64,000 bases of DNA from assembly GCF_032399705.1 (NCBI RefSeq), contig NZ_CP135922.1, forward strand, positions 2,046,001-2,110,000, written 5' to 3'. Every line of letters begins with the position of its first letter. Position 1 is the first letter of the stretch. Below are positions 1 to 14,512 of the stretch, piece by piece. The notes beneath the pieces were generated by a model. It was given only the letters and a program-made list of their open reading frames with translations, was not told the origin of the DNA and did no database searches. Origin of the DNA: Paenibacillus sp. BIC5C1 (GTDB lineage: Bacteria; Bacillota; Bacilli; Paenibacillales; Paenibacillaceae). The position numbers and the translations under genes are program-made.

Positions 1-105
1 AGCACAGGAAATTGTGCTATGATTAAAGATAACTCCAAAAGTTGAAGACGGGGTATGTTGTAAATAAAACTTTTTAGGTTAATAAAAGGAATAAGGTGAA
101 GAACA

Positions 106-1242
106 ATGACCATGCTAAACTCAGGATCGGTAGAACCGATGCCTTTATCGCCGACTAATGATCCTTGGGATCCAATCGGCTCTTTGCGTACATATGGACG
201 CCATGTGCTGACCAGTGTAGAAATGACCGTGACTCATCTGTGCAATATGCGTTGCGAGCATTGTGCGGTAGGAGATATGTTAACGATGCGCGAAGCACCT
301 GCGCTTCCGCTCCCTTTAATGCTTAAAAGGTTGGATGAAGTTGAGCACCTCCAGACGATTAGTCTGACAGGTGGTGAACCGAGCTTCAGCCAGAAGACCG
401 TGGATGAGATGATCATTCCGCTCCTCAAATATGCCAAGGAACGGGGCATTCGTTCTCAGATCAACTCCAATCTGACACTGGATTACCGTCGGTACGAGCA
501 ACTTCTGCCATATTTGGACGTTATGCATATCTCATTCAATTACCTGAATGCCGATGACTTTCACCAAGTCGGGTTTGCCAACAGTGGTAGACCTGTAAAG
601 CGGGAAGTTGCGGTGAAGATGTATGAGAAAATGATTGAAAACTCCCGTAAACTCAGTGAAGCGGGCATGTTTATTTCTGCGGAGTCCATGATTAATTTCC
701 GTACTCATGACAAGCTGGAGGGTATTCATCAATTGATCCGTGAGATGGGCTGTGTCCGTCATGAAGTGCATCCGATGTATAATTCGAATTTTGCTTCTTC
801 GCTGCCGGTGCTTTCCCTTGATCATATGAGAGCGGCTATTCATCGTTTGTTGGATGTGCGTGACAAGGATATGTGGATGCTGTTTGGTACACTTCCGTTC
901 TTCGCATGCAGTGCAGCAGAGCAGGATCGTGAACTGATTAACCGCCTGTATAGCGAACCTAAAGTGACGGTTCGTAATGATCCCGACGGTCGTAACCGCG
1001 TTAACGTCAACATGTTCACCGGGAACGTGTATGTTACTGATTTTGCCGACATCCCGGCGTTTGGCAACATTCGTGACCGGAAACTGGATGATGTATTCCA
1101 TGAGTGGTCAGCGGAACACCCCTTGAATCAGACAGTGAATTGTCATTGTGATGCTGCTTCTTGCTGTGGTCCGAATCTGTTGGTGGCAGATATGTATTAT
1201 AAAGGTGTGGATTTCAAATCGAGAAAAGCAATTACACGTTGA
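106..1242 (+). CDS. yfkAB: Radical SAM protein, YfkAB type
   Basis: Cytosolic radical S-adenosylmethionine enzyme of unknown substrate. The 4Fe-4S motif CNMRCEHC (CX3CX2C, Cys46, Cys50, Cys53) is followed by the SAM-binding segment LTGGEPS near residue 88. A C-terminal cluster CHCDAASCCGPN near residues 346-357 probably binds an auxiliary Fe-S centre. The length of 378 aa fits the fused Bacillus YfkAB form. The ATG lies just after AAGGTGAAG, a good ribosome binding site. The next gene starts 46 bases downstream, so the two may be cotranscribed. The family is recognised with good confidence; the reaction is unknown. Confidence 0.85.
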   Translation: MTMLNSGSVEPMPLSPTNDPWDPIGSLRTYGRHVLTSVEMTVTHLCNMRCEHCAVGDMLTMREAPALPLPLMLKRLDEVEHLQTISLTGGEPSFSQKTVDEMIIPLLKYAKERGIRSQINSNLTLDYRRYEQLLPYLDVMHISFNYLNADDFHQVGFANSGRPVKREVAVKMYEKMIENSRKLSEAGMFISAESMINFRTHDKLEGIHQLIREMGCVRHEVHPMYNSNFASSLPVLSLDHMRAAIHRLLDVRDKDMWMLFGTLPFFACSAAEQDRELINRLYSEPKVTVRNDPDGRNRVNVNMFTGNVYVTDFADIPAFGNIRDRKLDDVFHEWSAEHPLNQTVNCHCDAASCCGPNLLVADMYYKGVDFKSRKAITR

Positions 1243-1288
1243 TATTCCAGGTGTATTCCTGAAATAGATAGAAAAGGGGAGTTTCGAC

Positions 1289-2683
1289 TTGGGTATTCAT
1301 ACCGAATTTCATCTGGGGCAGTTGGTATTTAATCTGGTCTGTGTGTTTCTGCTCGTATTTTTGAATGGCGTATTTGTCGCAGCGGAATTTTCCCTGGTCA
1401 AAGTTAGACAAACACGCCTCACTCAATTACAGAGTGAAGGGAATAAGTTGGCTGGTTATGCACTGAAGGTGAATGGTAAATTGGATGCCTATCTATCGGC
1501 AACCCAGTTCGGAATCACGTTGACATCGCTGGGGCTTGGTTGGCTCGGTGAACCGGCTATTTCCGAATTACTGGTCGAACCTCTGATGTTCAAGCTTGGT
1601 GTAGCAGATACAGGACTTATATCCACAGTATCGGTCATTATAGGTTTCTGTATCATTACGTTTTTGCACATTGTGCTGGGTGAGCTTGCGCCCAAATCTC
1701 TGGCGATTCAAAAAACAGACGGAGTGGCTTTGCTGCTATCGGCACCGTTGCTGTTATTTTATAAAATTTTCTTCCCATTCATCTGGGTACTGAACGCGTC
1801 AGCCAATGCACTGCTGCGATTGGCAGGCATTGAACCCGCCAGCGAAGGGGAGGCCCATTCGGAAGATGAGCTTCGAATCTTGATGAAGCAAAGTGCGAAG
1901 AGTGGCGTCATCGACAAGGATGAAATCAAACTGATGGATAACATCTTTGATTTCTCGGATATGCTGGCACGTGAAATTATGCTGCCACGTACGGATATGG
2001 ACTGTCTTTATACGCATATGTCGCTGGAAGAAAACCTGAAAATTATTAATGCAACAAAGCATTCCCGTTATCCTGTAGCTGTTGAGGATAAGGATGAGAT
2101 TATCGGATTTATCCACATTACCGATCTGCTTCTTGCTGAACCTGACCATCAGCATGATTTGGCTGCGCTTGTCCGTCCGATTCTGAATGTTCCTGAATCG
2201 ATGGAGATCAGCCATGTACTTCGTCTGATGCAGAAAAAGCACTCCCAGATGACATTGGTGGTCGACGAATACGGGGGCACGGCAGGCTTGCTGACGGCTG
2301 AAGAGATTTTGGAAGAGATCGTTGGTGATCTGTATGATGAGTTCGAAGACGAACGTCCGCATATGGAGCGCAGTGGAGAAACTTTTTCCATCGATGGTCG
2401 TTCCCTGATTGAAGAGGTCCATGAATGGACCGGAGCTGTCATTGAGGATGAGGAAGTCGATACGATTGGCGGCTGGCTGTTCAAGGAATTGGAAGGCAGT
2501 GCGGTCAAAGGTAAAACACGGGAGCAAAACGGTTATGTCTTTGAAGTGGAAGAGTCCACCCGTCTCCGAATTACCAGAGTGAAGGTATATAAGCGACCGG
2601 ATCCCGAAGAAGATAAGGCGGAAATGGAAGGACAGGATCCAGATTCGATGCAGGATGCTGATCGTGAACGTAACAGGGACTGA
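1289..2683 (+). CDS. CNNM/CBS-domain membrane protein (hemolysin C-like, YhdP/YugS type)
   Basis: Membrane protein of the HlyC/CorC-related family, proposed to act in Mg2+ or other divalent-ion export. An N-terminal CNNM (DUF21) domain of three to four hydrophobic segments covers about residues 1-200. A CBS pair follows at about 210-335, where REIMLPRTDM marks its entry, and a CorC_HlyC domain occupies the C-terminus. The extreme tail is acidic and charged. The chosen start is TTG (protein begins MGIHTEF), because AAAAGGGGA lies eight bases before it and no ATG fits as well. Length, 464 aa, is usual for the family. Bacillus has several paralogues, so no single symbol is assigned. Confidence 0.85.
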   Translation: MGIHTEFHLGQLVFNLVCVFLLVFLNGVFVAAEFSLVKVRQTRLTQLQSEGNKLAGYALKVNGKLDAYLSATQFGITLTSLGLGWLGEPAISELLVEPLMFKLGVADTGLISTVSVIIGFCIITFLHIVLGELAPKSLAIQKTDGVALLLSAPLLLFYKIFFPFIWVLNASANALLRLAGIEPASEGEAHSEDELRILMKQSAKSGVIDKDEIKLMDNIFDFSDMLAREIMLPRTDMDCLYTHMSLEENLKIINATKHSRYPVAVEDKDEIIGFIHITDLLLAEPDHQHDLAALVRPILNVPESMEISHVLRLMQKKHSQMTLVVDEYGGTAGLLTAEEILEEIVGDLYDEFEDERPHMERSGETFSIDGRSLIEEVHEWTGAVIEDEEVDTIGGWLFKELEGSAVKGKTREQNGYVFEVEESTRLRITRVKVYKRPDPEEDKAEMEGQDPDSMQDADRERNRD

Positions 2684-2727
2684 GTGTTGATGAAATAAGC
2701 ATTGATGCATAGCCTCTAGATCAAATG

Positions 2728-2780
2728 AAGAGACCTTTGGACACTGCCCAGCGGGGTAAGTCGTTTGAAGGTCTTTTTTT
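2728..2780 (+). terminator. Rho-independent terminator after the CNNM/CBS gene
   Basis: Arms AGACCTT (2731-2737) and AAGGTCT (2768-2774) enclose a long loop and run into a T tract. It separates the first two genes from cotJABC. Confidence 0.6.
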
Positions 2781-2907
2781 GCGTTCAGCTAAATATGGGA
2801 TTAACTTGGGGGACAGCGACATATGGTTATAGAGACGGGAAATGAAAGCTTGGAATGATGCGATGTCGAATGTATCAAATCAGTAGTGATGAAGGAGGCG
2901 TTGTTCT

Positions 2908-3147
2908 GTGTCAGATCCACAGCTTCGTGCTTACGCCCCTTTTGTGGGGCCGTTTGATCCATGTCCACCAAAGACGATTCGGACGTACTTAGTTCCTCCG
3001 CAACTGTTTATCCCATTTCAGCCGATGGGCTGGCCGCAGTTCAGTCCTGCAGAAGCCTTAAGAATTGGAACATTGTGGCCTGCTTTATACAGTCCTTATA
3101 CACCTGCCAGCTCAAAGGGAAGGAAGGTGGAAGCAGATGGAACCTGA
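2908..3147 (+). CDS. cotJA: Spore coat-associated protein CotJA
   Basis: Small proline- and tyrosine-rich protein of 79 aa with the typical CotJA pattern of PFVGPFDPCPPK and FIPFQPMGWPQFSP. In Bacillus CotJA is made in the mother cell and interacts with CotJC in the spore coat. The GTG start is preceded by GAAGGAGGCG at 2891-2900, seven bases away. It is the first gene of a three-gene operon, and its last 11 bases overlap the start of cotJB. Mother-cell (sigma-E) transcription is expected from the family, but I could not identify a convincing sigma-E promoter. Confidence 0.88.
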   Translation: MSDPQLRAYAPFVGPFDPCPPKTIRTYLVPPQLFIPFQPMGWPQFSPAEALRIGTLWPALYSPYTPASSKGRKVEADGT

Positions 3148-3412
3148 AGCACCTAAAGCCTGTGATGCAAAATACTATGAGCTGCTGGAGGAACTTCAGG
3201 CACTGGATTTTGTATTAGTTGAGCTGAATCTGTATCTGGACACCCACCCGGGTGATTATCAGAGCATTGAGCAATACAACAAATTCAGCCAGGAGCGGAT
3301 GAGGGTGGCACATGAGTTTCAGCAATTGTACGGACCGTTGATGAACTTTGGGCATGCGTTCTCCAAATATCCATGGGAATGGTCCCAGACGCCATGGCCT
3401 TGGCAAGTGTGA
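3137..3412 (+). CDS. cotJB: Spore coat protein CotJB
   Basis: A 91-aa protein beginning MEPEAPKACDAKYY, with the CotJB pattern LLEELQALDFVLVELNLYLDTHPGD and a tryptophan- and proline-rich C-terminus (YPWEWSQTPWPW). The reading frame is open further upstream, but this ATG is chosen because AGGAAGGTGG lies seven bases before it and the length then fits the family. It overlaps cotJA by 11 bases, implying translational coupling. It is the middle member of cotJABC, between the coat adaptor CotJA and the catalase-like CotJC. Confidence 0.87.
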   Translation: MEPEAPKACDAKYYELLEELQALDFVLVELNLYLDTHPGDYQSIEQYNKFSQERMRVAHEFQQLYGPLMNFGHAFSKYPWEWSQTPWPWQV

Positions 3413-3504
3413 TATAACATCCTCGGGTTTCCTTGCAGTCATTCCAAGCCGGGAGCTCGAGGGATCGTAACAGTTTGGATTTGATTTAAAAAGGAGGCGT
3501 CTGC

Positions 3505-4074
3505 ATGTGGGTGTATGAAAAAAAATTGCAATATCCCGTTCGGGTCAGCAAATGTGATCCTCATATGGCGAAATTGCTGGCGGAACAGTATGGGGGCGCA
3601 GACGGAGAACTGGCGGCTGCCCTGCGGTATTTGAACCAGCGGTATACGATTCCGGACAAGATTATCGGGCTGTTGAACGACATAGGCACGGAGGAATTCG
3701 CTCACTTGGAAATGATTGCGACAATGATATATAAATTGACAAAAGACGCATCGGTGCAGCAGCTGGAGGAAGCGGGGCTTGGGCCGAATTATGCTCAGCG
3801 TGATTCTGCTTTGTTCTATACGAATTCTTCGGGTGTGCCATTTACAGCAGCCTATATTGCCTCGAAGGGAGATCCGATTGCGGATTTGTACGAGGATATT
3901 GCAGCGGAAGAGAAGGCACGGGCTACATATCAATGGTTGATCGATCTTACGGATGACGTGGATCTGCAGGACAGTCTCAAGTTTCTGAGAGAACGGGAAA
4001 TTGTGCATTCCTTGCGTTTTCGTGAGGCCGTAGAGATTCTGAAGGATGATCGGGAGACGAAGAAGATTTTCTGA
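3505..4074 (+). CDS. cotJC: Spore coat manganese-catalase-family protein CotJC
   Basis: A 189-aa ferritin-like protein of the dimanganese catalase family. Likely metal ligands are visible in four helices: a Glu in ADGELAAALRYL, a Glu and His in EEFAHLEM, a Glu in DIAAEEKARATY and a His in REIVHSLRF. It would dismute hydrogen peroxide or serve as a structural coat protein of the spore. The ATG follows AAAAAGGAGGCG with good spacing. It lies 92 bases after cotJB and closes the operon. The length matches CotJC rather than the longer free manganese catalases. Confidence 0.9.
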   Translation: MWVYEKKLQYPVRVSKCDPHMAKLLAEQYGGADGELAAALRYLNQRYTIPDKIIGLLNDIGTEEFAHLEMIATMIYKLTKDASVQQLEEAGLGPNYAQRDSALFYTNSSGVPFTAAYIASKGDPIADLYEDIAAEEKARATYQWLIDLTDDVDLQDSLKFLREREIVHSLRFREAVEILKDDRETKKIF

Positions 4075-4229
4075 CAAGGAAAACATATCGTTCTCATTGC
4101 CGTTCTCTGTCAAGGGAGCGGTTTTTGCGTTGGTAGGAACGTTCAAAGCATGTCTTCATTGGTTTTGAGATAATGGTAATGGGATGTATCCAGTAAAAGT
4201 TATCATTTCAAATATAAAATAATAAAAAA

Positions 4230-4270
4230 CAGGACCGTCTTTTTTATAAAAAAAGGCTGTCCTGCTTTTT
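4230..4270. terminator. Bidirectional terminator between cotJC and the FabH-like gene
   Basis: The near-palindrome CAGGACCGTC...GGCTGTCCTG has A/T tracts inside and a T run on either side. It sits between convergent genes and can serve both strands. Confidence 0.75.
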
Positions 4271-4289
4271 GAGGTTTAGTGTCAAGCTC

Positions 4290-5282
4290 TCAGTATTCAA
4301 CGACCATGGCAACATTTTGCCATCCAGCGCCAACGGTCCAGAACAGCACTTTATCACCACGCTGAATTTGGCCGGATGTTATGGCTCGATGCAATGCAAT
4401 GAACGGGCTGCTGGTTGAGGTGTAACCGAACTCATCTCCGATGTAGACGGCAATATCTTCGCTAATGCCAATGTTCTCGGATACAGCACGTATATTGCCA
4501 ATGGATAATTGGGAGAAACAAGCGGCTTTGATCGCATCTGCTCCGATTTCATTACGACTTAGCAAAGTTCGAATCGAATCAGAGGCAGCGCCTACACAGA
4601 TGGAATCATCAAACGGTATGAATTTTACATGGAAGGCACCTGCGTCAACACCGGTTTGGCCCAGTTTTGCAAGACCTTGTGCCGGGAAGAGAGAATTGCC
4701 GTACACACAGGTATCAGTCTGATAGATCGAGTCAATAAAACCGACTGCCTGCTCGTCCCGTTCAACAATGACAGCTGCTGCTGCGTCCCCAAAGTTCGCG
4801 AAGTACACAGGATCGTCTGGACTGGCGTGAGGAGCGATGTAATCCGAGCCAATAATCAAAGCACGACGAATTCTGGGATTACCCAGCATCTGACGACTAA
4901 CTTGTTCAAAGGCGGCGGTCATGCCCGCACAGTTTGCATTGCTGTCAATGCAGATCGTATGGGATGCCCCGTTAATTAGGCGATGAATCATTAAGGAATT
5001 CGTAGGAAAGATGTATTCCGGCGTTTGACTTGCATAAGCAATCAGATCGATATCGGCACCTGTGAGTCCGGTCTTTTCGAGCAAATTACTGGCGGCCTCA
5101 AAGGCCATGCTTAGTGAGTTTTCATCATCGTTGTCAATTTTGTAACGTGTATCACGCCCAAGTGCCTTTAACAATCCCCGAATATCTACACCTCTTGCAT
5201 CAAAATGTTCAATATAAAAGTCATTGCCCACCTTGTTCGTTGGGTGATAGATATCGATATCTACAATACGAATTCCAGCCAT
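4290..5282 (-). CDS. Atypical 3-oxoacyl-ACP synthase III (FabH-like), His/Asn of the triad replaced
   Basis: Thiolase-fold protein of about 330 aa, the usual length of ketosynthase III. The nucleophile is kept as Cys118 in SNANCAG. The HQAN-type segment that carries the catalytic His in FabH aligns by eye with SQLS (257-260), and the GNTS-type Asn segment with GYTS (Tyr287). Known FabH enzymes use His and Asn to decarboxylate malonyl-ACP, so this protein is more likely an acyltransferase or a non-decarboxylating condensing enzyme than housekeeping FabH. The second ATG (MAGIRI) is chosen because GAGGAG lies seven bases before it; the first ATG at 5288 abuts that site. It is the last gene of the locus shared with the ThDP enzyme, 54 bases after the STAS-like gene. 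Confidence 0.82.
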   Translation of the reverse strand: MAGIRIVDIDIYHPTNKVGNDFYIEHFDARGVDIRGLLKALGRDTRYKIDNDDENSLSMAFEAASNLLEKTGLTGADIDLIAYASQTPEYIFPTNSLMIHRLINGASHTICIDSNANCAGMTAAFEQVSRQMLGNPRIRRALIIGSDYIAPHASPDDPVYFANFGDAAAAVIVERDEQAVGFIDSIYQTDTCVYGNSLFPAQGLAKLGQTGVDAGAFHVKFIPFDDSICVGAASDSIRTLLSRNEIGADAIKAACFSQLSIGNIRAVSENIGISEDIAVYIGDEFGYTSTSSPFIALHRAITSGQIQRGDKVLFWTVGAGWQNVAMVVEY

Positions 5283-5336
5283 CTTCATTCTCCTCTTGAG
5301 CGGATGGGTGAACCCTCAGGTTGTCCGCCTGGTTTA

Positions 5337-5687
5337 TTATGTCGTAACCGTGGAGATGATCTCAAGATTGTCCAATCCGACAGACCGTCCAAGACGGGAC
5401 AGCTGCATTTTCAGAATGGCATTATTCTCAAGTGTCAACACCACTTTTTTATATTCATCTTTTTTGAACATCTGCAGGCAGCCTTCGAGAAGAGGCACAA
5501 TTTCCGGAGCGGTAACATTCAACTTTTTGCAATCAATATTCAGCGCATACTCCTTGGTGTTAATCGGAGCGATCGTATCCTGATATGCCGAGATGGAACG
5601 CAAACCGTCTTCTTGAGAGAAAGAGCCCTCCAGTTCAATGTTCAACACCTTGTTCGGAACGTCAGTTTTCAGTATAAAACTTCCCAT
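5337..5687 (-). CDS. Small STAS-like domain protein
   Basis: A 116-aa soluble protein with an alternating strand/helix pattern like SpoIIAA/STAS domains: the strand YALNIDCKKLNV, then helix APEIVPLLEGCLQMF, then strand KVVLTLENN and a C-terminal helix. STAS proteins bind ligands or partner proteins. I see no clear phosphorylatable serine motif of the SpoIIAA type, so an anti-sigma role is not supported. The start follows AAAGGAGAG at good spacing. A promoter-like pair lies about 115 bases upstream. Its place between two biosynthetic enzymes suggests a carrier or regulatory subunit, which is inference. I do not recognise a named family. Confidence 0.65.
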   Translation of the reverse strand: MGSFILKTDVPNKVLNIELEGSFSQEDGLRSISAYQDTIAPINTKEYALNIDCKKLNVTAPEIVPLLEGCLQMFKKDEYKKVVLTLENNAILKMQLSRLGRSVGLDNLEIISTVTT

Positions 5688-5801
5688 GATTGTTCTCTCT
5701 CCTTTAAATGAGTTAAGGCTATCCTGCTAACCAAGACATAGGCCTTGAGGCCCTCGCTGACTGATTCTGAGATGTAGCGGATTCGAAGGATAATTTAACC
5801 A

Positions 5802-5831
5802 TATTATAAAGGTAGAGATGTAATAAGATCA
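5802..5831 (-). promoter_or_regulatory. Likely internal promoter before the STAS-like and FabH-like genes
   Basis: Read on the minus strand: TTGATC (5831-5826), an 18-base spacer, then TATAAT (5807-5802). The leader carries a GC-rich hairpin AGGCC-TTGA-GGCCT around 5740-5754. It would let the two distal genes be expressed apart from the ThDP gene. Confidence 0.5.
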
Positions 5832-5872
5832 ATAAAAAAGTCGAATCGTGTATAAAAATGTAGAAGAGTGAA

Positions 5873-6241
5873 TTATTGGATTTCATCCAATGTAGCGAGC
5901 AATATATTAAAAGCACTGATGATTCGTGGGGCACCAACACAAGGTGCCAGATGCAGCAAAATTCCTTTGAGCTGATCCACGGTTACACCGACACTTAGCG
6001 CCATCGCATAATGAACCCCCAACTGCTCATACTGGCCCTGTGAGATCAGTGAGGAGATAATCGCAACTTCCTTCCATTGATCGGTGATGGTTGTACGCTG
6101 AAAAATATCCCCGTAAGCTGTTCCCATAATAAACTCGGCGAGCTCAGGGAACTGATCCTTAATCGGTGCCAGTGCTTTTGCACCATATTCACCGGAAAGC
6201 TTTGCAAAACGCTCCAATCCTTGAGTCACTTGTTCACTCAT
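5873..6241 (-). CDS. Carboxymuconolactone decarboxylase/AhpD-like family protein
   Basis: A 122-aa all-helical protein with the family core WKEVAIISSLISQGQ and LGVHYAMALSVGVTVDQLKGILLHLAPCVGAPR. The AhpD redox motif CXXC is absent, so it resembles the gamma-carboxymuconolactone decarboxylase branch rather than alkylhydroperoxidase. The ribosome binding site AGGAGGAG overlaps the stop region of the upstream ThDP gene, with 13 bases between the genes, so the two are almost certainly translated from one message. It may isomerise or decarboxylate the product of the ThDP enzyme. The family is confident; the function is not known. Confidence 0.8.
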   Translation of the reverse strand: MSEQVTQGLERFAKLSGEYGAKALAPIKDQFPELAEFIMGTAYGDIFQRTTITDQWKEVAIISSLISQGQYEQLGVHYAMALSVGVTVDQLKGILLHLAPCVGAPRIISAFNILLATLDEIQ

Positions 6242-6254
6242 GTTATTGCTCCTC

Positions 6255-7886
6255 CTAATTCAAAGTCACGGTACGGTGAGCCGTGGGTGGGATCTCGTCG
6301 CGATCGGTCAGAAGCTCAATGACAGTAACTTGGTTCAGCTGCTGCGCGCTCTGGAGAGCTGATGTGAATTCAGCCCGTGTTTCTGCCCGAAAAGCAACAG
6401 CACCGAGCGACTCGGCAAATTTTGCCGCATCCAGGGGAACCTCAAATAAAGTGCCATCAATTCGACCTGTTGTTTTTTCCATGCCTTTCAGTGCCATATC
6501 CAGCTGTTTATTGTTTACAACGATGAAGATGACCGGCAGATTGTTGCATACAGCGGTGTTAATCTCGGTTCCTAGCATCATAAAGCAACCATCACCTGTA
6601 ATGCATACAATGGTTTCTTCCGGTGCGGCAGTCTTGGCCCCAATAGCCATGCCTATGGCATTGCCCATGCAGGCAAAGTAGGCGTCAAACACGAAGCTGC
6701 CGGGTTTCTTAACTTTATATCGTTGAACCGCATGAAAACCATGACTGCCATCATCCACAAACAGTTTATGATCATATGGAAGCAGTTTACTCATTTCTTC
6801 CAAGATGGAAGCCAAGGACAGACGCGGCAGATGCGGGAGAGGTACGGTGTAATCCACAGTGGTCGTCTCTCTTGGAACAACAGGTTGTTCTGTCAGTGTA
6901 CCGAGCAAGAACTGCAGGTTGTCCTTCAAGTCGCCGGTGATATGTAAGGTTTGCGCGTGAAGTATTTTACCAACGAATGTAGGATCAGCGTCGAATTGAA
7001 TGAGATGTGCAGGGTGGTTTTCAGGCTTCAAATTACAGATGGTCATATCACTCAGACGTGAACCGAGTACGATGTAGAGATCACTTTGATTGAGCAGTTC
7101 ATCTGCATGAGGGAATCCACCGACACCGCAGGGTCCATGATATAGAGGATGATCCCAAGCAATGGCACCTTTTCCTCCGGGAGAAGTAATGACAGGAATA
7201 TTGAAATGTTCGGCAAAATGAAGCAATTCATCATGGGCTCTGGCGCGACTGACGCCTTTGCCTGCAATAATTAAAGGATGACTCGACTGTTGAAGTAAGG
7301 GGAGGATACGATTCAGGTTGGATACGCTAATCAGGGGTTCTGGCTCCGGGAGGACAACCCGGAAATCAGCGAGCTGTTCGGTTTGTACGTCAAAAGGAAG
7401 ACAGAGATGCACCGGACCTTTGTTGGGACCGAGTGCAATGGAAAGGGCGTGATTCAGTATGGTGCTGAAATGATCACCGCGCTCCACCAGCTTGCTGAAG
7501 AGGGTGGCAGGACGGAACATCTCCGCCAAATCAGCCAAGTAGGAAGAGGAGTCCTGACATTGCGGAAGCCCCAATTCCTGAATGGATTGATGACCCGTAA
7601 TAAACAGGACGGGCAGATTGTTAGCCTTGGCATGGGCCGCGGCGGTGAGCAAGTTGGTTCCACCTGGACCAGAAGTGGCGAAGGCCACACCCAGTTTGCC
7701 TGTTTGGAGGGCATAGCCCGATGCGGCAAAGCCTGAGCTGGATTCATGGCGGCCTGGAATGAATTCCAAACCGTAATCGACCATTTTTAGGACAGCAGGA
7801 CATATGGATTTTCCGATAATACCAAAGACATGAGTAACGCCTAAATTACGCAGAGCTTCTGCCAAATAGTCCGCAACTGTTCTCAT
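6255..7886 (-). CDS. Thiamine diphosphate-dependent enzyme (acetolactate/acyloin synthase-like)
   Basis: Three-domain ThDP enzyme of 543 aa related to acetolactate synthase and 2-oxoacid decarboxylases. The N-terminal Pyr domain carries the catalytic Glu48 in GRHESSSGF. The C-terminal PP domain carries GDG at 431-433 and NN at 458-459, the Mg2+/ThDP motif. The middle domain (about 190-330) has IIAGKGV and VLGSRLSD, but FAD dependence cannot be judged. The ATG giving MRTVADYL is chosen over a GTG three codons earlier because GAGGTG sits about six bases before it. It is the first gene of the four-gene locus and is transcribed away from the oxidoreductase at 8294. No regulatory acetolactate synthase subunit is nearby, and the partners differ from branched-chain amino acid operons, so a specialised carboligase is likelier than IlvB. 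Confidence 0.85.
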   Translation of the reverse strand: MRTVADYLAEALRNLGVTHVFGIIGKSICPAVLKMVDYGLEFIPGRHESSSGFAASGYALQTGKLGVAFATSGPGGTNLLTAAAHAKANNLPVLFITGHQSIQELGLPQCQDSSSYLADLAEMFRPATLFSKLVERGDHFSTILNHALSIALGPNKGPVHLCLPFDVQTEQLADFRVVLPEPEPLISVSNLNRILPLLQQSSHPLIIAGKGVSRARAHDELLHFAEHFNIPVITSPGGKGAIAWDHPLYHGPCGVGGFPHADELLNQSDLYIVLGSRLSDMTICNLKPENHPAHLIQFDADPTFVGKILHAQTLHITGDLKDNLQFLLGTLTEQPVVPRETTTVDYTVPLPHLPRLSLASILEEMSKLLPYDHKLFVDDGSHGFHAVQRYKVKKPGSFVFDAYFACMGNAIGMAIGAKTAAPEETIVCITGDGCFMMLGTEINTAVCNNLPVIFIVVNNKQLDMALKGMEKTTGRIDGTLFEVPLDAAKFAESLGAVAFRAETRAEFTSALQSAQQLNQVTVIELLTDRDEIPPTAHRTVTLN

Positions 7887-8293
7887 GCGGGACACCTCGC
7901 TTCACAAAATAGGTTTTTGGACCCACAGGTCAAGTTCCATTTTTGGGATGTATGTCGTTGTCTAAGGTTGTAAAAGGAAATAAATCCTTGTTAATAGGAA
8001 GAGTAGCTTTTTTTGTGGTTTTTTGTCAACCGATTTTATAAGTATAAGTTCCTGATTCTAAGGTTGGAAACGCTTAATGTCTTGCCCTATAAGAGAAAAT
8101 AAATTGGTTATATATTCCTGCAACGAATTACCTATAAACAAGATTTGTAGAATAAAATGTAAAATGATATAGAATATTGTAGATTTATTTTGTGAAGATC
8201 CAATGAGGATCGTATGCTTTCTATTTCACATCCGTGCAAGGATTGGCAATGTTATGCTTTCTGTTATACTGAAATTCGATGGGAGTGAATTGA
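7887..8293. other. AT-rich divergent intergenic region
   Basis: No gene is visible. A minus-strand TTGACA (8029-8024) with a weak TACTCT 18 bases on may drive the ThDP operon; a TTTCCA/TATACT pair further upstream is an alternative. A clear plus-strand promoter for the oxidoreductase lies at 8243-8270. Confidence 0.45.
8243..8270 (+). promoter_or_regulatory. Sigma-A promoter of the Gfo/Idh/MocA gene
   Basis: TTGGCA (8243-8248), 16 bases, TATACT (8265-8270). It is followed by the GGGAGTG ribosome binding site and the ATG at 8294. Confidence 0.6.
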
Positions 8294-9265
8294 ATGACAA
8301 CGATAAAAATGGCCGTAATTGGACTGGGTAAAATGGGATTACATATGATACATCAGGCGACAGAGGCAGAACTATCCAAAAAAGTAGAGATTGTAGCGGT
8401 ATGCGATGCCAGCGAGGAAAATTTGGCCTCGTTTGCATCCTCTCATCCTGAGACGAAAACGTATACAGATTTCAAGCGATTACTAGACACACATACGGTT
8501 GATCTGCTGTACATTGCCGTTCCGCCTAAATATCACTATGCCGTCGTTATGGAGGCACTAAAGCGCGAGATTCATGTATTCTGTGAGAAACCACTGGCAA
8601 ACAGCGTGGGGGAAGCCAAAGCAATGCTGGAGGCAGCCGAGAAGGCCGATGTAGTACATGCAATCCATTTTTCCATGCCACATGAATCATCAGTAGTGAA
8701 ACTGCAAGAGCTGATCCGTCAGGAAACGATTGGCGAGATTCGCAAAATTGATCTGATCCTGCAATTTCCTCAGTGGCCACGAGCGTGGCAGCAAAATGCA
8801 TGGATTACCAGCCGTGAGCAGGGTGGATTTATTCTTGAAGTGGGAATCCACTGGATTCATATGATCCATAAAGTGTTTGGTGCTATTAGGGTGATTAACA
8901 GTCAGGTTCAATTTCCTGAAAATAAAGATGAATGTGAACATGAAGTTCATGCTGCGATGGAGCTGGAGGATGGAACCCGAATCCAATTGAATGGGATTGC
9001 TCATTTTGCGGGTGAAGAGCGTGTATCCATGGTGGTCTACGGTACTGAAGGAACGATTGCCTTGGAAAACTGGGATCAACTATGGAGAGGACGCGTCGGA
9101 GAACCTCTTGTTCCCGTCGAAGTTGATGAATCCTTAAGCCAGTTGCCTGTACTTAAACACGTCATAGCCCGTATCCAAGGCCAACCTGCCAAAATATACG
9201 ATTTCAACGATGGCTATCATGCACAGCTTGTCCTTGAAGCATTGCGTAATCCGGATCAATTCTGA
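8294..9265 (+). CDS. Gfo/Idh/MocA family NAD(P)-dependent oxidoreductase
   Basis: A 323-aa two-domain dehydrogenase. The N-terminal Rossmann domain has GLGKMG at residues 11-16, and the family motif CEKPLA lies near residue 98. The substrate-domain helix VGIHWIHMIH supplies the usual catalytic His. Members oxidise or reduce sugars, inositols and similar polyols. The start follows GGGAGTG, and a sigma-A-like promoter is visible just upstream. It stands alone between a divergent promoter region and a strong terminator, so the substrate cannot be deduced from context. Confidence 0.83.
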   Translation: MTTIKMAVIGLGKMGLHMIHQATEAELSKKVEIVAVCDASEENLASFASSHPETKTYTDFKRLLDTHTVDLLYIAVPPKYHYAVVMEALKREIHVFCEKPLANSVGEAKAMLEAAEKADVVHAIHFSMPHESSVVKLQELIRQETIGEIRKIDLILQFPQWPRAWQQNAWITSREQGGFILEVGIHWIHMIHKVFGAIRVINSQVQFPENKDECEHEVHAAMELEDGTRIQLNGIAHFAGEERVSMVVYGTEGTIALENWDQLWRGRVGEPLVPVEVDESLSQLPVLKHVIARIQGQPAKIYDFNDGYHAQLVLEALRNPDQF

Positions 9266-9319
9266 TCTAAAAAAGGTACTGAGCTAGATGAGGATTCGTT
9301 AAATGTTCTTTCCATTTGA

Positions 9320-9362
9320 AAAAAAGAAGCAGATCTCTATAGAGTAGGGATCTGCTTCTTTG
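9320..9362. terminator. Strong bidirectional terminator
   Basis: Perfect 12-bp arms AAGAAGCAGATC (9324-9335) and GATCTGCTTCTT (9349-9360), with an A run before and T-rich sequence after. It serves the oxidoreductase and the convergent chemoreceptor gene. Confidence 0.85.
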
Positions 9363-9387
9363 TGTTATCTGGATCTAATCCATAGGA

Positions 9388-11106
9388 TCAAGACAATTTG
9401 AATCGGTTAACCAGTTGATCAAGTGCATCGGACATTTCGTTTAACTGCTTGGAGGTGTCTGTCATTTCCTGTAGTGAAGCAAGTTGTTCTTCGGTCATAG
9501 CTGATACTTCTTCTGTGGCTGATGCGGTATCCTCAACTACGGCGGATACTTCGTTAATGGACTTCATCACCGTTTCACTGCCGGATGTCAGTTGTTCCAC
9601 TACAGCGGATACGTCCTGAACTTCACCGCTGAGATCATGAATGTGCTGGGTAATATTTGTGAATGCATGCCCTGCATCTTCAATCGTCCGTAATCCTTCG
9701 TTGACATGGAGTGTACTTTCGTCCACAACCTGCGCCGTGTTTTGGACTCCGGTTACAACAGTTTCCAATATGCTTGTAATTTCTTTCGCTGACGTGGCAC
9801 TTTGATCTGCCAGATTGCGGATTTCAGAGGCAACGACAGCAAATCCACGTCCATGTTCCCCTGCGCGAGCAGCTTCAATTCCAGCATTGAGTGCGAGTAA
9901 GTTCGTTTGTCTTGCAATTCCTGACATGGAATCGGCAATGTTAATAACTTGATCAGACATTTCTGAGATTTCGTTAATGGCTTCCTGTACAGACAAGAAG
10001 GATTGTTCAATGAACGTTATTTTCCCAACAGCATTATCGATACGCTGCTGTCCATCAACGGCGATGGATTCGGTACGTACGGCACGTTCAGCCACGTCGG
10101 CAGTTGTAGCCGCTACCCGATTAAGTCCGATGAGCGATTGTTCCATCGCAGCGACCATGGTCTGAGTGAGGGCAACTTGTTCATCGGCACCTTCTGCGAC
10201 TCGCTCCATGGCCGTGGCCACCTCTTTTCCAGCGATATGATTATCAGAAACGCCTTTATCCAGTCGATCGGAGGCTGTACTCAGAATGGTGGCATTACTT
10301 TGAATGTCGAGCATCATTTGCTGCAGTCCCAGGAGCATGGTATTGGCAGCTTCAGCCAATTCCCGTGTCTCGTCTTTCATCGGAGTGGCAATTCGCAAGG
10401 TCAGATCACCATTGGAGGAGCCGATATCATTCAGTGCATGTGTCACTGCACGGATGTTCCTTACAATAGACCGGGACAGGACTAATGCAGCGATGACTGA
10501 GATTAAGGCAACAAGGAACAATGCTCCGTACAACTCCCAGTTGAGCACCTTGTTTTTTTGTTTCAGTTCTTCTGTACGGGTTTCAGTCAGAGCCAGTTCA
10601 TTGGTTCGGAATGTACTCAGGGATTGCCGAATTTGGTCCATATCCTGTTTACCAGGATCTGTCGTGAAAAATTGTCGGATCGAAGGTAGATCATCGGCCT
10701 GGCGTAGCGCAACAATCGGTTCTCCTGCGATTTGAATCCAGTGTTCCATGGTCTTATGTATATCTTCCAACAGCTTCAGCTGTGAGGGGTTGTCCGAGAT
10801 CAAGGTAGCGAGTTGATCCTTAAGTACAATCATCTGTTCTTTTCCATGGGTATACGGATCAAGGTAATTTTCCTGCGCTGTAATTACGTAACCCCGTTGG
10901 CCTGTTTCCATATCCACCATGTTCTTTTCAATCTCATAAGTCAGGGCGTGTACATTCATATCGTGATCTACGAGAAAATCCAATTCGCTTTGAAGTTTGC
11001 TGGTACTGTTCTGGATCAAAAGAATGCAACCCGCCAAAACAGCGAGTACGAGCAAATAGCCCAAACCAATCTTATAAAAAATTTTGAAGGTTCTGTGCTT
11101 TTTCAT
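9388..11106 (-). CDS. Methyl-accepting chemotaxis protein with CHASE3-type sensor
   Basis: Transmembrane chemoreceptor of 572 aa. TM1 covers about residues 12-31 ([17 protein letters not shown]). An extracellular helical domain (about 35-185) containing [15 protein letters not shown] is typical of CHASE3. TM2 covers about 192-214, followed by a HAMP domain to about 270 and a cytoplasmic signalling domain. The hairpin tip [28 protein letters not shown] contacts CheA/CheW in known receptors. The ATG follows AAGGAGAGG with about 11 bases spacing. The ligand is unknown. The gene is a single transcription unit with its own promoter and terminator. Confidence 0.92.
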
Positions 11107-11169
11107 GTTTGTTATGCCTCTCCTTGGGGTATATGTATTTGTCGAAAAAACTTGGATGAGAGCTGTTTT

Positions 11170-11198
11170 AGTTCTTTAGTTGTGGTGTCTAAAGAACT
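11170..11198. repeat. Perfect inverted repeat in the chemoreceptor leader
   Basis: Arms AGTTCTTTAG (11170-11179) and CTAAAGAACT (11189-11198) with a nine-base loop. It begins about four bases into the predicted transcript from the minus-strand promoter at 11209-11237, so it is either an operator or a 5' mRNA hairpin. Confidence 0.7.
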
Positions 11199-11208
11199 AT
11201 TTTTCAGT

Positions 11209-11237
11209 ATTATACTTAATGAAAGTTAAATTGTATA
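11209..11237 (-). promoter_or_regulatory. Promoter of the chemoreceptor gene, overlapping a divergent promoter
   Basis: Minus strand: TATACA (11237-11232), 17 bases, TATAAT (11214-11209). A plus-strand TTGTAT (11231-11236) and TATAAT (11256-11261, 19-base spacer) overlap its -35 and could drive the HAD gene. Confidence 0.55.
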
Positions 11238-11393
11238 TAGTTTGTTTAATTTAAGTATAATGTTTGTAGATGTTGTATAACGTTAATGACACAGATGTTT
11301 TACATTGCACGGTTTACACTGCCAAACGTTTATGTTTATCATGGAAGGGGAACGATTCCGAATACATATCCCAATCCGAAAGGAACATTGGAC

Positions 11394-12080
11394 ATGACAA
11401 AAGAGACGGTATTGCGTAAACCGGAAGCGATGATTTTTGATATGGATGGTACTTTGTTTCAGACGGAAACTCTGTTGTTGCCAGCCTATCATCAGCTGTT
11501 TGATACATTGCGGGCCGAAGGGCATTTTGAAGGAGAGACTCCTCCTGAAGAACGAATGCTGGGAAGCCTGGGGATGTTGCTAGAAGATATATGGAAAGTG
11601 GTTATGCCTGAAGCTTCAGTTGCGGCCCATCGACGTGCAGACGAACTGCTGCTTCAGTTGGAGATTGAAGGGCTCGATGGGGGTAGCTCGCAGCTGTACC
11701 CGCAAGTCAAAGAGACGTTGCAAGCGTTGAAAGAACAGGGCGTAAGGTTGTTTGTGGCCAGTAACGGGCTGGAGGACTATGTTAAAGGTGTGGCCTTTGC
11801 CCATGAGATCATGCCGCTCTTTGAAGGTGTGTATAGTGCAGGACAGTACAAGACCCCTTCCAAAGTGAATTTGGTTCAGATTCTGCTTGAGAAGCATCGG
11901 ATTCAGGATGCGTGGATGGTTGGGGATCGTTCTTCGGATGTGGAAGCAGGCAAAATGAACAACCAGACCGTCATCGGCTGTGCTTATGCAGGATTTGGAC
12001 GGGACGAAGAACTTGCAGGATCAGATGTACTGATCTCTGATTTTACGGAACTGCTTCGTTTGTATAGGGAAGCCGAATAG
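11394..12080 (+). CDS. HAD-superfamily hydrolase, phosphoglycolate phosphatase-like
   Basis: A 228-aa phosphatase of HAD subfamily I. Motif I is FDMDGT (nucleophile Asp16, acid Asp18), motif II is VASNG, motif III Lys lies in YKTPSK and motif IV is VGDRSSDVEAG. The helical cap between motifs I and II is typical of phosphoglycolate or beta-phosphoglucomutase-like members. The frame is open upstream to 11286, but the ATG giving MTKETVLRKPEAM is chosen because AAAGGAAC lies nine bases before it and the catalytic motif then falls at the usual distance. The substrate cannot be determined. Confidence 0.85.
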   Translation: MTKETVLRKPEAMIFDMDGTLFQTETLLLPAYHQLFDTLRAEGHFEGETPPEERMLGSLGMLLEDIWKVVMPEASVAAHRRADELLLQLEIEGLDGGSSQLYPQVKETLQALKEQGVRLFVASNGLEDYVKGVAFAHEIMPLFEGVYSAGQYKTPSKVNLVQILLEKHRIQDAWMVGDRSSDVEAGKMNNQTVIGCAYAGFGRDEELAGSDVLISDFTELLRLYREAE

Positions 12081-12131
12081 AAAAAAATGACCACCCTACA
12101 TCCATTCGGATGTTGGATGGTCATTTTTTTT
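12081..12131. terminator. Bidirectional terminator between the HAD gene and the yheCD array
   Basis: A long hairpin AAAAAAATGACCA...TGGTCATTTTTTT with inner arms CATCC/GGATG. It lies between convergent genes and can end both transcripts. Confidence 0.85.
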
Positions 12132-12173
12132 GGTTCAAGGAGAATTTGGTTCACTATCAATGCAGTCTAAAGT

Positions 12174-13370
12174 TCATAACCTGGATCTTCTGGTCCTTTT
12201 GAGGGTGGCAGACTTACCTTTTACCCGTTTGACTGGTTTAGTTACCTTCACGCCATGAGGAGGACGATTCGCACTTGGGTGGTTGTTGTACACCCATAAG
12301 GCGTACTCCAGTGGTTGAGTAATTGCCTTGGAATAAGTATCTTTCTCTCCAATGCGGGCAAATACTTCACGTGCAGGCTTCGGATTCACTTCGAGCAGAT
12401 AGATACGCCCACTTTTGTCAATCGCCAAATCCAGAGCCAATTCACACAAGGCTCCGTAGGTGTTTTCCAGAAATGAGGCAACGTCAATCCCAAATTTCTC
12501 GGCAGTGGTGTTGATCTCAGCCCGTTCCTTCTCATCGGTAATCCACTGTTTCATCAATTTGTGCATCGCAATGGCCTGGCCACCGCCATGCAAATTAGAG
12601 GTAACACTTTTCTCAGCACCCATACGTCCTGCGCATCCAGTTAATTCCCACTGTCCTTCACCATTCTTCTGGACCAGCATTCGATAATCATGAACCCGGC
12701 CATTCGGAAGCTGAAGCTGAATTCCCTGCTGAACAAGGTATTTATCTTTCATATTCCAATGCTGAAGCAGTGAACCCAAGCGTGACAGATGGACTTTGCG
12801 TGGGGTGATGATCCGTCGCTTCTGGTCCCGTCCCTGTACAAGAACCGTATTGGCCTCACTGCCACTGCGTTCGATGCGAAGGATTCCGCGCCCTCCGGTT
12901 CCATTAATGGGTTTCAGATAGATGAGCGAGGAGGCTTTCAGCATACGATTCACATCGGACATATCCTGAAACAGAACGGTATCTGGCAGATGTTCACGAA
13001 AGGCTGATTTCGCCGACAGCGTTTGATGAATAGTCCATTTATTGCGCAGCGGACGGTTTAGAAAGAGCAGATGGCCATACTTTTCCCGAAAGGCAAGCAG
13101 TTGCTGGAATCTGCGATTGCGCTGTATCCGGCAGCGATCGAAGATCATGTCCGGGAATGAACGCCATTCCCGGGACCAGCCTTTTTCCGAATGAAAGACC
13201 ATAGCCTCAATCTGTTTGCCTCCTGAGTGTACATCGGCAGGTGTGAACACATAGATATCGAGTCCCCGCTTGCGCCCTTCAAGGATCATTCTGCGGTATA
13301 TGCTCCGTTCTTCAAGAGCGCGATGTTCATTTAAGTACAACGTCATAATGCCCAGAACAGGTGAGGACAC
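12174..13370 (-). CDS. YheC/YheD family ATP-grasp protein (array member 1, distal)
   Basis: An ATP-grasp protein of 398 aa and short (YheC-like) form, lacking the extra N-terminal domain. The family signature is visible: MIFDRCR, KPINGTGGRGILRI (nucleotide-binding loop), YLVQQGI, DYRMLVQKNGEGQW, GGGQA, and the metal/ATP-binding end LALDLAIDKSGRIYLLEVNPKP. The C-terminus is very basic. A GTG start (MSSPVLGI) is preferred over a TTG two codons earlier, because AAGGTGA lies six bases before the GTG. Bacillus YheC and YheD are coat-associated sporulation proteins; a ligase activity is inferred from the fold. It is the last gene of the five-gene array, ending in a terminator. Confidence 0.83.
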   Translation of the reverse strand: MSSPVLGIMTLYLNEHRALEERSIYRRMILEGRKRGLDIYVFTPADVHSGGKQIEAMVFHSEKGWSREWRSFPDMIFDRCRIQRNRRFQQLLAFREKYGHLLFLNRPLRNKWTIHQTLSAKSAFREHLPDTVLFQDMSDVNRMLKASSLIYLKPINGTGGRGILRIERSGSEANTVLVQGRDQKRRIITPRKVHLSRLGSLLQHWNMKDKYLVQQGIQLQLPNGRVHDYRMLVQKNGEGQWELTGCAGRMGAEKSVTSNLHGGGQAIAMHKLMKQWITDEKERAEINTTAEKFGIDVASFLENTYGALCELALDLAIDKSGRIYLLEVNPKPAREVFARIGEKDTYSKAITQPLEYALWVYNNHPSANRPPHGVKVTKPVKRVKGKSATLKRTRRSRL

Positions 13371-13405
13371 AAACAATCACCTTCTTTTGCTGTTATTCCT
13401 GTTCA

Positions 13406-14512
13406 TCATCGTTTCGATTGACGGGCAAGGTAGGCGCTGTACTGAAAAATGCGTTCCAGCGACCTCCGTCGAATCTGCGGTTCATCAAACTTCATTGGTT
13501 TCGCGTTTGCTTCAAAGAACCAGATCTCTCCAAGATCGTCAACACCCAGGTCCATGGACATCTCGCCAAGGATATGACCCGAACCTCGTTCCACTTGTCT
13601 TGCGATCAACAATGAAGTGGACTTTACCCGCTTCATCAGTGAAGTCGACATTTCTTCCCCGAACAGATCGGTTAGCAACTTCTCAGGGTCCTCCACCGTA
13701 CCTCCACGCGGAACGTGGGTCGTAATGCTTCGAGACCCGGCGAGACGGGCGCCAACACCGGTTACGCTCCACTGTCCTTTTCCGTTTTTCTGCACAAGTA
13801 CCCGCAGATCGAATGGACGCTTATGGGACGATGCTAGCTCAATACCCTGTTGCATGATATAGGGCGTGTGTCCAGTTTCCTTGCGAATTCTTGCCCACAA
13901 CTTGGAAAGGGTAGATGCTTTGTACGTGGTGCTTTTGCGGGTGCTCTGTATTTTAAGCCGGTAAGGAAGCCGTTCTTTTTCCTGGAACTTGAGCATCATG
14001 ATTCCTTTGCCAGCCTTGCCGCTCTCTGGTTTCAGATACAGGTAAGGATACGATCGCAGCACCGTCCCCAGAGCGGTTGCTGTTCGCATTCGGCGTGTAT
14101 AGGGAATCAGCTGCTGGGTAGACTTGGATTTCTTGAGCCATTCGAACAAATTCCATTTATTGAAGAAAAACGGGTTATACAGTTCGATTCCGGAATGCAT
14201 ACATTCCTCAATTTTGCGCTGTACTGAAGGCTTGCGTTCATCTTCCCGGTTGGGGATCCGATTGTAGAGCACATGGGGGAGGGGGAAGGACTGTGAAGTC
14301 CATCTCCCAATCCCTTTATTGTACGTGTATCCTTTCACAGTGGGGCCGCTCACGTTTAAATCTCTTACAGTCACGACGTACACCACATATCCCATATTTT
14401 CGCCCGTCTGCACAATATCCAGGAAGTTTTGTTGGTTTCCTCTGAACATCCGTTGATCATCATGCATGGTCAAGATGGCAATAACGGGTCTAAAATCATC
14501 CTGCAAGCTCAT
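13406..14512 (-). CDS. YheC/YheD family ATP-grasp protein (array member 2)
   Basis: A 368-aa short-form ATP-grasp protein starting MSLQDDFRPVIAIL. The ATG overlaps the stop codon of the preceding gene (TGATG), which fixes the start and implies translational coupling. The reading frame is open 47 codons further upstream, inside that gene, but no better start is seen. Signature segments are VLYNRIPNRE, FFNKWNLFEWL, LKPESGKAGKGIMML, MQQGIELA, DLRVLVQKNGKGQWSVTG and MDLGVDDLGEIWFFEANAKP. It probably acts with the other array members in spore coat or envelope assembly, which is inferred from Bacillus homologues. Confidence 0.83.
   Translation of the reverse strand: MSLQDDFRPVIAILTMHDDQRMFRGNQQNFLDIVQTGENMGYVVYVVTVRDLNVSGPTVKGYTYNKGIGRWTSQSFPLPHVLYNRIPNREDERKPSVQRKIEECMHSGIELYNPFFFNKWNLFEWLKKSKSTQQLIPYTRRMRTATALGTVLRSYPYLYLKPESGKAGKGIMMLKFQEKERLPYRLKIQSTRKSTTYKASTLSKLWARIRKETGHTPYIMQQGIELASSHKRPFDLRVLVQKNGKGQWSVTGVGARLAGSRSITTHVPRGGTVEDPEKLLTDLFGEEMSTSLMKRVKSTSLLIARQVERGSGHILGEMSMDLGVDDLGEIWFFEANAKPMKFDEPQIRRRSLERIFQYSAYLARQSKR

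Follow-up and report, generated by a model that had tools for sequence, protein, structure and literature searches.

Four genes on the minus strand of Paenibacillus sp. BIC5C1 form two separable gene pairs in tandem. They lie in a window of 64,000 nucleotides (contig NZ_CP135922.1, positions 2,046,001 to 2,110,000), by which we mean the whole stretch of DNA analyzed; their coordinates are counted from its first letter. The first pair encodes a thiamine diphosphate (ThDP)-dependent enzyme of the acetolactate-synthase fold, in a subfamily of its own (7886–6255; 543 amino acids, with three TPP_enzyme Pfam domains), and a protein of the carboxymuconolactone decarboxylase (CMD) family without CXXC (6241–5873; 122 amino acids). 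The second encodes a STAS-like protein with a predicted SpoIIAA fold (5687–5337; 116 amino acids) and its genetic partner, a FabH-like protein with the fold of ketoacyl-acyl carrier protein (ACP) synthase III, here called KAS (5288–4290; 332 amino acids), which carries Cys120, Ser259 and Tyr289. The gaps between the genes are 13, 185 and 48 bases, and the open reading frame coordinates bear out what had been read from the letters, namely four genes on one strand with CMD 13 bases past ThDP. The order ThDP-CMD-STAS-KAS recurs in 32 of 80 KAS loci from named genomes (among the matches listed), all of them Paenibacillus by record title, over KAS identities of 73–100%, and in 15 of 15 close-relative loci; the other 48 of the 80 hold the STAS-KAS pair without adjacent ThDP or CMD genes. 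Taken together, the locus may well make an acylated acyloin, that is, an alpha-hydroxyketone ester, and this is the reading that we tentatively prefer.

How would such a product be made? First, the ThDP enzyme would decarboxylate one 2-oxoacid and join the product to a second carbonyl compound. The CMD-family protein would then decarboxylate the resulting alpha-hydroxy-beta-keto acid to give the free acyloin, and KAS would load an acyl group on Cys120 from acyl-CoA or acyl-ACP and then hand it on to the hydroxyl group of the acyloin. KAS would have a dedicated partner in the STAS-like protein, which perhaps docks the acyl carrier. Such a sequence of steps would explain the distinct ThDP subfamily, the adjoining CMD gene and the loss of the condensing residues from KAS, and also why STAS-KAS is present in each of 57 genomes with the acyloin module and occurs alone as well.

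The ThDP enzyme, the CMD protein and sensor-linked relatives

The Glu and the GDG...NN of the ThDP protein, earlier described as intact, are found at residue 48 and from residues 431 and 458. The protein falls under every listed NCBIfam cut-off, with 279.1 of the 538.35 bits for biosynthetic acetolactate synthase, and in the tree it belongs to a group of 14 rows, made up with its sensor-linked relatives and separate from IlvB and POX, at a support of 92/95 that is just under the tool's starred level, with long branches for IolD, POX and CsmA. A housekeeping IlvB paralog is ruled out by this score and the tree, and the grouping with IlvB that the sequence-only reading had seen as a danger to itself did not appear. 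At 1e-15 the genome has four ThDP matches, with no AlsS seen in this set; three carry the labels IlvB-like (a small-subunit-like gene comes next), IolD-like and POX-like. The nearest PDB chains are the acyloin-type enzymes BbmA and CsmA. Of 59 relatives, 21 carry a ThDP enzyme of the window type (84–100% identity) and five more a relative at 44–47%.

The CMD protein reaches the Pfam CMD family (1e-11; 45.1 bits against a cut-off of 23) and stays short of the PcaC equivalog (45.3 of 155.7 bits). It has one cysteine and no CXXC, just as the letters had suggested. Outside the window clade, 15 related ThDP genes were read (L136, L183–L187, two each in L188 and L189, L191, L216, L217, L222 and L223), and CMD directly follows 10 of them, out of 14 evaluable genes (L136 is cut by the locus end). 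Five of those 10 CMDs lie in loci that had been picked by CMD; when they are excluded, CMD follows five of nine ThDP genes. (L188, L189, L190 and L191 were all chosen by CMD, so its presence there is no test; in L190, CMD is present and ThDP absent.)

These relatives have a further neighbor. Fourteen of the 15 ThDP genes, with L217 as the exception, stand directly behind the gene for a protein that shares one N-terminal domain. This domain matches the dihydroxyacetone regulator DhaR, both in NCBIfam (1e-18 to 1e-24, far under the full-length cut-off) and in the PDB (1.9e-12). Of five such sensors submitted to Pfam, three have PAS and histidine kinase domains and two have PAS and GGDEF-EAL domains; the L216 sensor is only 308 amino acids long. 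The two genes, sensor and ThDP, share 4 bases in P. cellulositrophicus and are 5 bases apart in Priestia megaterium ATCC 14581, where plasmid pBMV_1 (L223, 4079–7653) has genes for a Spo0E-family phosphatase, a sensor kinase-like protein and a ThDP enzyme in a row, adjoined by transposase genes. L188 and L189 each hold two convergent sensor-ThDP-CMD sets.

Could the product then be a signal? The ThDP(-CMD) product might be an alpha-hydroxyketone that is read, in the relatives, by the neighboring sensor (a GAF-PAS histidine kinase or a GGDEF-EAL protein), and that STAS-KAS modifies or reads in the window clade. The near-constant position of the ThDP genes behind a DhaR-type domain, and the kinase or GGDEF-EAL outputs of the five sensors, argue for this. 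However, the sensor domain was found in none of the 21 window-clade genomes at 1e-15 (59 genomes searched), three genomes carry it without a ThDP relative, and the target of a DhaR-type domain may be a substrate, or the enzyme to which it binds, instead of a secreted signal. (DhaR binds DhaK/DhaL.) We regard a signaling locus as an unlikely alternative. The same domain could also point to catabolism or detoxification. ThDP-CMD would then degrade or assimilate 2-oxoacids or alpha-hydroxyketones, and in other genomes the substrate would be detected by the DhaR-like sensor. AcoR is a detector of acetoin, DhaR by its database name regulates a catabolic operon, and the CMD family, again by name, has members known in aromatic catabolism. 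On the other hand, the window locus has no transporter or dehydrogenase genes, and the STAS-KAS partner would be left unexplained, so that a catabolic role appears rather improbable.

The KAS III-fold protein and its STAS-like partner

KAS has KAS III Pfam domains and a predicted KAS III fold, and to this extent its description as a FabH-like enzyme holds. Aligned to the genome's own two FabHs, which have Cys, His and Asn all present, it retains the Cys as Cys120, but the His is replaced by Ser259 and the Asn by Tyr289, a loss that the sequence-only reading had missed. The subfamily alignment shows the same Cys/Ser/Tyr pattern in its 41 rows, and each of the three residues is present in 80 of the 80 KAS loci. 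Because one of the two scan patterns behind those loci already included the Tyr, the residues were recounted in homologs from a motif-free protein search: 119 of 120 (the best 120 of 227) have Cys-Ser-Tyr, and the remaining one, a fragment, lacks the Cys region. Five plasmid copies found by tblastn agree, and a KAS from P. taichungensis is 100% identical to that of the window. L062, a 27% match to KAS, has the normal His and Asn and no STAS neighbor.

A normal FabH is ruled out by these residues. The His and Asn of KAS III serve the decarboxylation of the malonyl unit, and from their loss we infer that KAS is a non-condensing acyltransferase. It had been proposed that the acyloin, once formed, is either acylated or extended; acylation fits best, and extension is disfavored in a protein without His and Asn.

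No Pfam family matches the STAS-like protein, and 21 members of its family give chance-level matches only. Likewise, the family profile retrieved only unrelated chains from the PDB, with E values of 0.3 or worse. Its structural model, with a predicted local distance difference test score (pLDDT) of 91.6, nevertheless matches SpoIIAA, RsbS and SiaC (Foldseek, VIA-align), so by its model the protein has the fold of this group, and the earlier assignment of the third gene as STAS-like is upheld. Conservation in the family alignment is highest at Gln95 (55 of 55 rows) and at Asp52 and Arg98 (54 of 55 each), and Lys93-Met-Gln-Leu-x-Arg, in the last predicted helix, is a candidate contact surface.

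The pairing of the two genes is close. A STAS-like gene lies near KAS in each of the 80 loci from named genomes, in 16 of 16 divergent loci of relatives (some rows of which trained the profile), near 66 of 68 KAS genes across 57 genomes and in four of five plasmid loci; the neighborhood hidden Markov models were partly built from loci that were later scored (L046–L061, L183–L191 and, in part, L136). In four loci (L059, L144, L147 and L227) STAS is on the strand opposite KAS, so the link is not one of operon structure alone. Pair-only loci occur in Paenibacillus, Saccharibacillus, Oceanobacillus, Neobacillus, Metabacillus, Clostridium and others, and one of them, L136, has a ThDP gene with its sensor about 5.7 kilobases (kb) away. 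The pair is sporadic: in a sample of 398 genomes from across the phylum, seven have STAS, and six of the seven are Paenibacillaceae. Carriage by phages is rejected, as no phage record matches KAS at 1e-20. Six plasmid records do match it, of which five were read, as were two of the six plasmid records matching ThDP. In L055, L225, L226 and L228, STAS-KAS or KAS lies on large plasmids or plasmid-like stretches; a gene for an RNA-binding protein recurs in L055, L225 and L226, and genes for nicotinate phosphoribosyltransferase and ribose-phosphate pyrophosphokinase are found in L225 and L228.

A partner with the SpoIIAA/RsbS/SiaC fold, next to a KAS that has lost its His and Asn, could also be taken to mean that the pair is a sensor or switch, in which a KAS-fold acyl-binding protein reports the acyl-CoA or ACP state via the SpoIIAA-like protein. 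Yet Cys120 is invariant, and although the fold is shared with SpoIIAA and RsbS, the phosphorylation position is not conserved. The phosphorylated Ser of SpoIIAA presumably corresponds to alignment columns 59 and 60, where we set it by eye, and these columns are mixed over the 55 rows, with no conserved Ser or Thr. Moreover, the 48 pair-only loci show few signaling genes by simple motifs, and no other neighbor family is present in more than 10 of them. We consider a switch of this kind very unlikely.

Linkage of the two pairs

Why are the two pairs found together? Among 296 genomes searched, at least 74 have a close CMD (at least 66% identity), and 57 of these were scanned with KAS and STAS profiles. 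STAS and KAS are both present in 57 of the 57, and CMD, STAS and KAS stand together in 47; the remaining 17 of the 74 have KAS at 88–100% (among the matches listed). In a control of 37 CMD-negative genomes picked from those listed, STAS is present in 18 of the 37 family members. This co-occurrence, in counts that ignore kinship, supports a working link between ThDP-CMD and STAS-KAS. Conservation of the four genes together in relatives, by which the sequence-only reading was to stand or fall, is thus seen both in these genomes and in the 32 four-gene loci. The four-part set is conserved as such in Paenibacillus, but it is not one invention, since the pairs are separable and 10 of the 57 genomes have them split; a single indivisible four-gene operon is ruled out by the occurrence of the pairs apart in other genomes.

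The 185-base gap before STAS has a promoter-like block (5788–5845, minus strand) with TTCGAC, TTGATC-18-TATAAT and the dyad GGTTAAATTATCC; the sequence-only reading had overlooked this block, which is conserved within the four-gene clade. TTCGNC, about 140–210 bases before STAS, is found in 30 of 32 four-gene loci; the corresponding figures are eight of the 48 loci with the pair alone and 26% of 300-base stretches taken at random. The near-perfect dyad (5788–5800) comes just after the spacer TATAAT and is kept in close relatives; it is a possible operator, and does not recur exactly elsewhere in the window. (The spacer's TTCGACT is one base off what we take to be the 0A box, on the opposite strand; control by Spo0A was set aside.) Since the block is conserved, STAS-KAS may have its own promoter, and with this predicted promoter the locus may comprise two transcription units. 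Downstream of KAS, an intrinsic terminator (4230–4264, minus strand) consists of a hairpin followed by a T run, and the fold of 4215–4275 on that strand, at −18.8 kcal/mol (z −5.6), confirms the terminator said to bound the locus. Of the divergent promoter proposed for the other end, only the divergence stands: the upstream neighbor is a Gfo/Idh/MocA gene (8294–9265, plus strand), present beyond the four genes in all 15 close-relative loci, but promoter-like sites in the gap (7887–8293) are at chance level (nine found versus 7.2 expected over 4050–8300). Past the Gfo/Idh/MocA gene lies a gene for a CHASE3-HAMP chemoreceptor (9388–11106), full-length in 11 of the 15 loci. A known RNA element was rejected, with zero Rfam matches at gathering level for window positions 1–14000. 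Anti-phage defense was considered and rejected, as neither the four window proteins nor two sensors matched anything in PADLOC at 1e-5.

Several observations weigh against an acylated acyloin as the product. Where STAS-KAS stands without ThDP or CMD beside it (48 loci), it must use another acceptor. In the 10 split genomes the division is partial or complete: five have CMD-STAS without KAS there and a STAS-KAS pair elsewhere, and in the other five CMD is apart and the STAS-KAS pair is elsewhere in the genome. (In detail, L194 of G659 has ThDP-CMD-STAS and no KAS, and G482, G503, G525 and G661 have CMD-STAS with KAS not nearby, a full pair being present elsewhere in each; for G577, one of five split genomes, completeness is 78% and KAS is matched in part.) Within the window's genus the contrast is weaker, with STAS in 20 of 20 CMD-positive versus 12 of 17 CMD-negative genomes, and none of the co-occurrence counts is corrected for kinship. 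The STAS-KAS link has its own gaps: two of the 68 KAS genes are without STAS inside 2.5 kb, as is the plasmid locus L225, and L195 (G061, of a distant family) has a STAS-like gene (7478–7852) with no KAS match in 16 kb. On the ThDP side, four related genes have no adjoining CMD, the enzyme's identity to BbmA (33%) and CsmA (31%) resembles that to the genome's IlvB (31%) and its placement relative to BbmA and CsmA in the tree is weak, and the sensor proteins beside related ThDP genes indicate a signaling role as well. That the two pairs are unrelated and neighbors by chance, as the 185-base spacer, the conserved promoter-like block in it, the pairs' occurrence apart and the 10 split genomes might suggest, is highly improbable given a tandem order held in 32 loci across KAS identities of 73–100%, and STAS and KAS kept in all 57 CMD-positive genomes even when split.

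Known systems and implications

An acyloin synthase combined with a ketosynthase (KS)-like acyltransferase is a kind of pathway already known. The xenocyloin pathway reportedly has a ThDP acyloin synthase, and we know of no STAS or CMD partner in it; its likeness to the window locus lies in a ThDP enzyme and a KS-like protein in one locus, the acyltransferase role in the window being deduced from residues. XclB and XclC (xenocyloin, Xenorhabdus bovienii) and CerJ are KS-like ester-forming enzymes, and Pau29 is one by proposal (PMC4425429). CerJ shares with KAS the KAS III fold, and ester formation, but has a Cys-His-Asp triad versus Cys-Ser-Tyr. For the first step, CybE, BbmA and CsmA are ThDP-dependent alpha-hydroxy-beta-keto acid synthases that join two 2-oxoacids, and the furanolide synthase CybF begins with an O-acylation (PMC12395478, which prints BpmA where the PDB prints BbmA); BbmA and CsmA are the best PDB matches to the window ThDP enzyme, at an identity no better than that of IlvB. 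In the carbazole pathway, the acyloin step of CqsB3 (ThDP) is followed by that of the KAS III-like CqsB1 (PMC7466098), but CqsB1 performs a decarboxylative condensation with acyl-ACP, whereas in the window KAS the His and Asn typical of KAS III are gone. The STAS domain of YchM has been solved with ACP (PMC3340395); YchM, however, is a membrane transporter, whereas the STAS-like protein of the window is a free protein of 116 amino acids beside the KAS gene. Neither the STAS-KAS pair nor the ThDP-sensor operon was found in the literature searched, with most subscription journals outside the reach of that search.

What may be said of these genes beyond the window? A KAS III-fold subfamily is defined here whose members databases call ketoacyl-ACP synthase III despite the loss of His and Asn, and it is linked with a partner gene for which Pfam has no match. 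More speculatively, and with little confidence on our part, STAS-KAS might be an undescribed two-part class of acyltransferase in Bacilli and Clostridia, with a STAS-dependent Cys-Ser-Tyr site, that was recruited in Paenibacillus to a ThDP-CMD acyloin synthase with relatives next to DhaR-type GAF kinases and c-di-GMP enzymes; acyloins and their esters would then make up a family of ThDP-derived alpha-hydroxyketone signals of Gram-positives. The plasmid operon for a ThDP enzyme and sensor kinase in Priestia megaterium ATCC 14581 offers a place to test for a new alpha-hydroxyketone signal. By the names of homologs among the matches listed, the window falls within Paenibacillus, close to P. amylolyticus and P. 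xylanexedens; the window has a GC content of 46.8%, and the genome of Paenibacillus PK1-4R one of 46.08% at 6.96 megabases (PMC13248692). A 2025 Rostock thesis cited there announces in its title the first natural acyloin esters, from Paenibacillus PK1-4R. If the locus does make an acylated acyloin, then it would provide genes for acyloin esters, compounds that, by the title of that thesis, have been newly found in nature.

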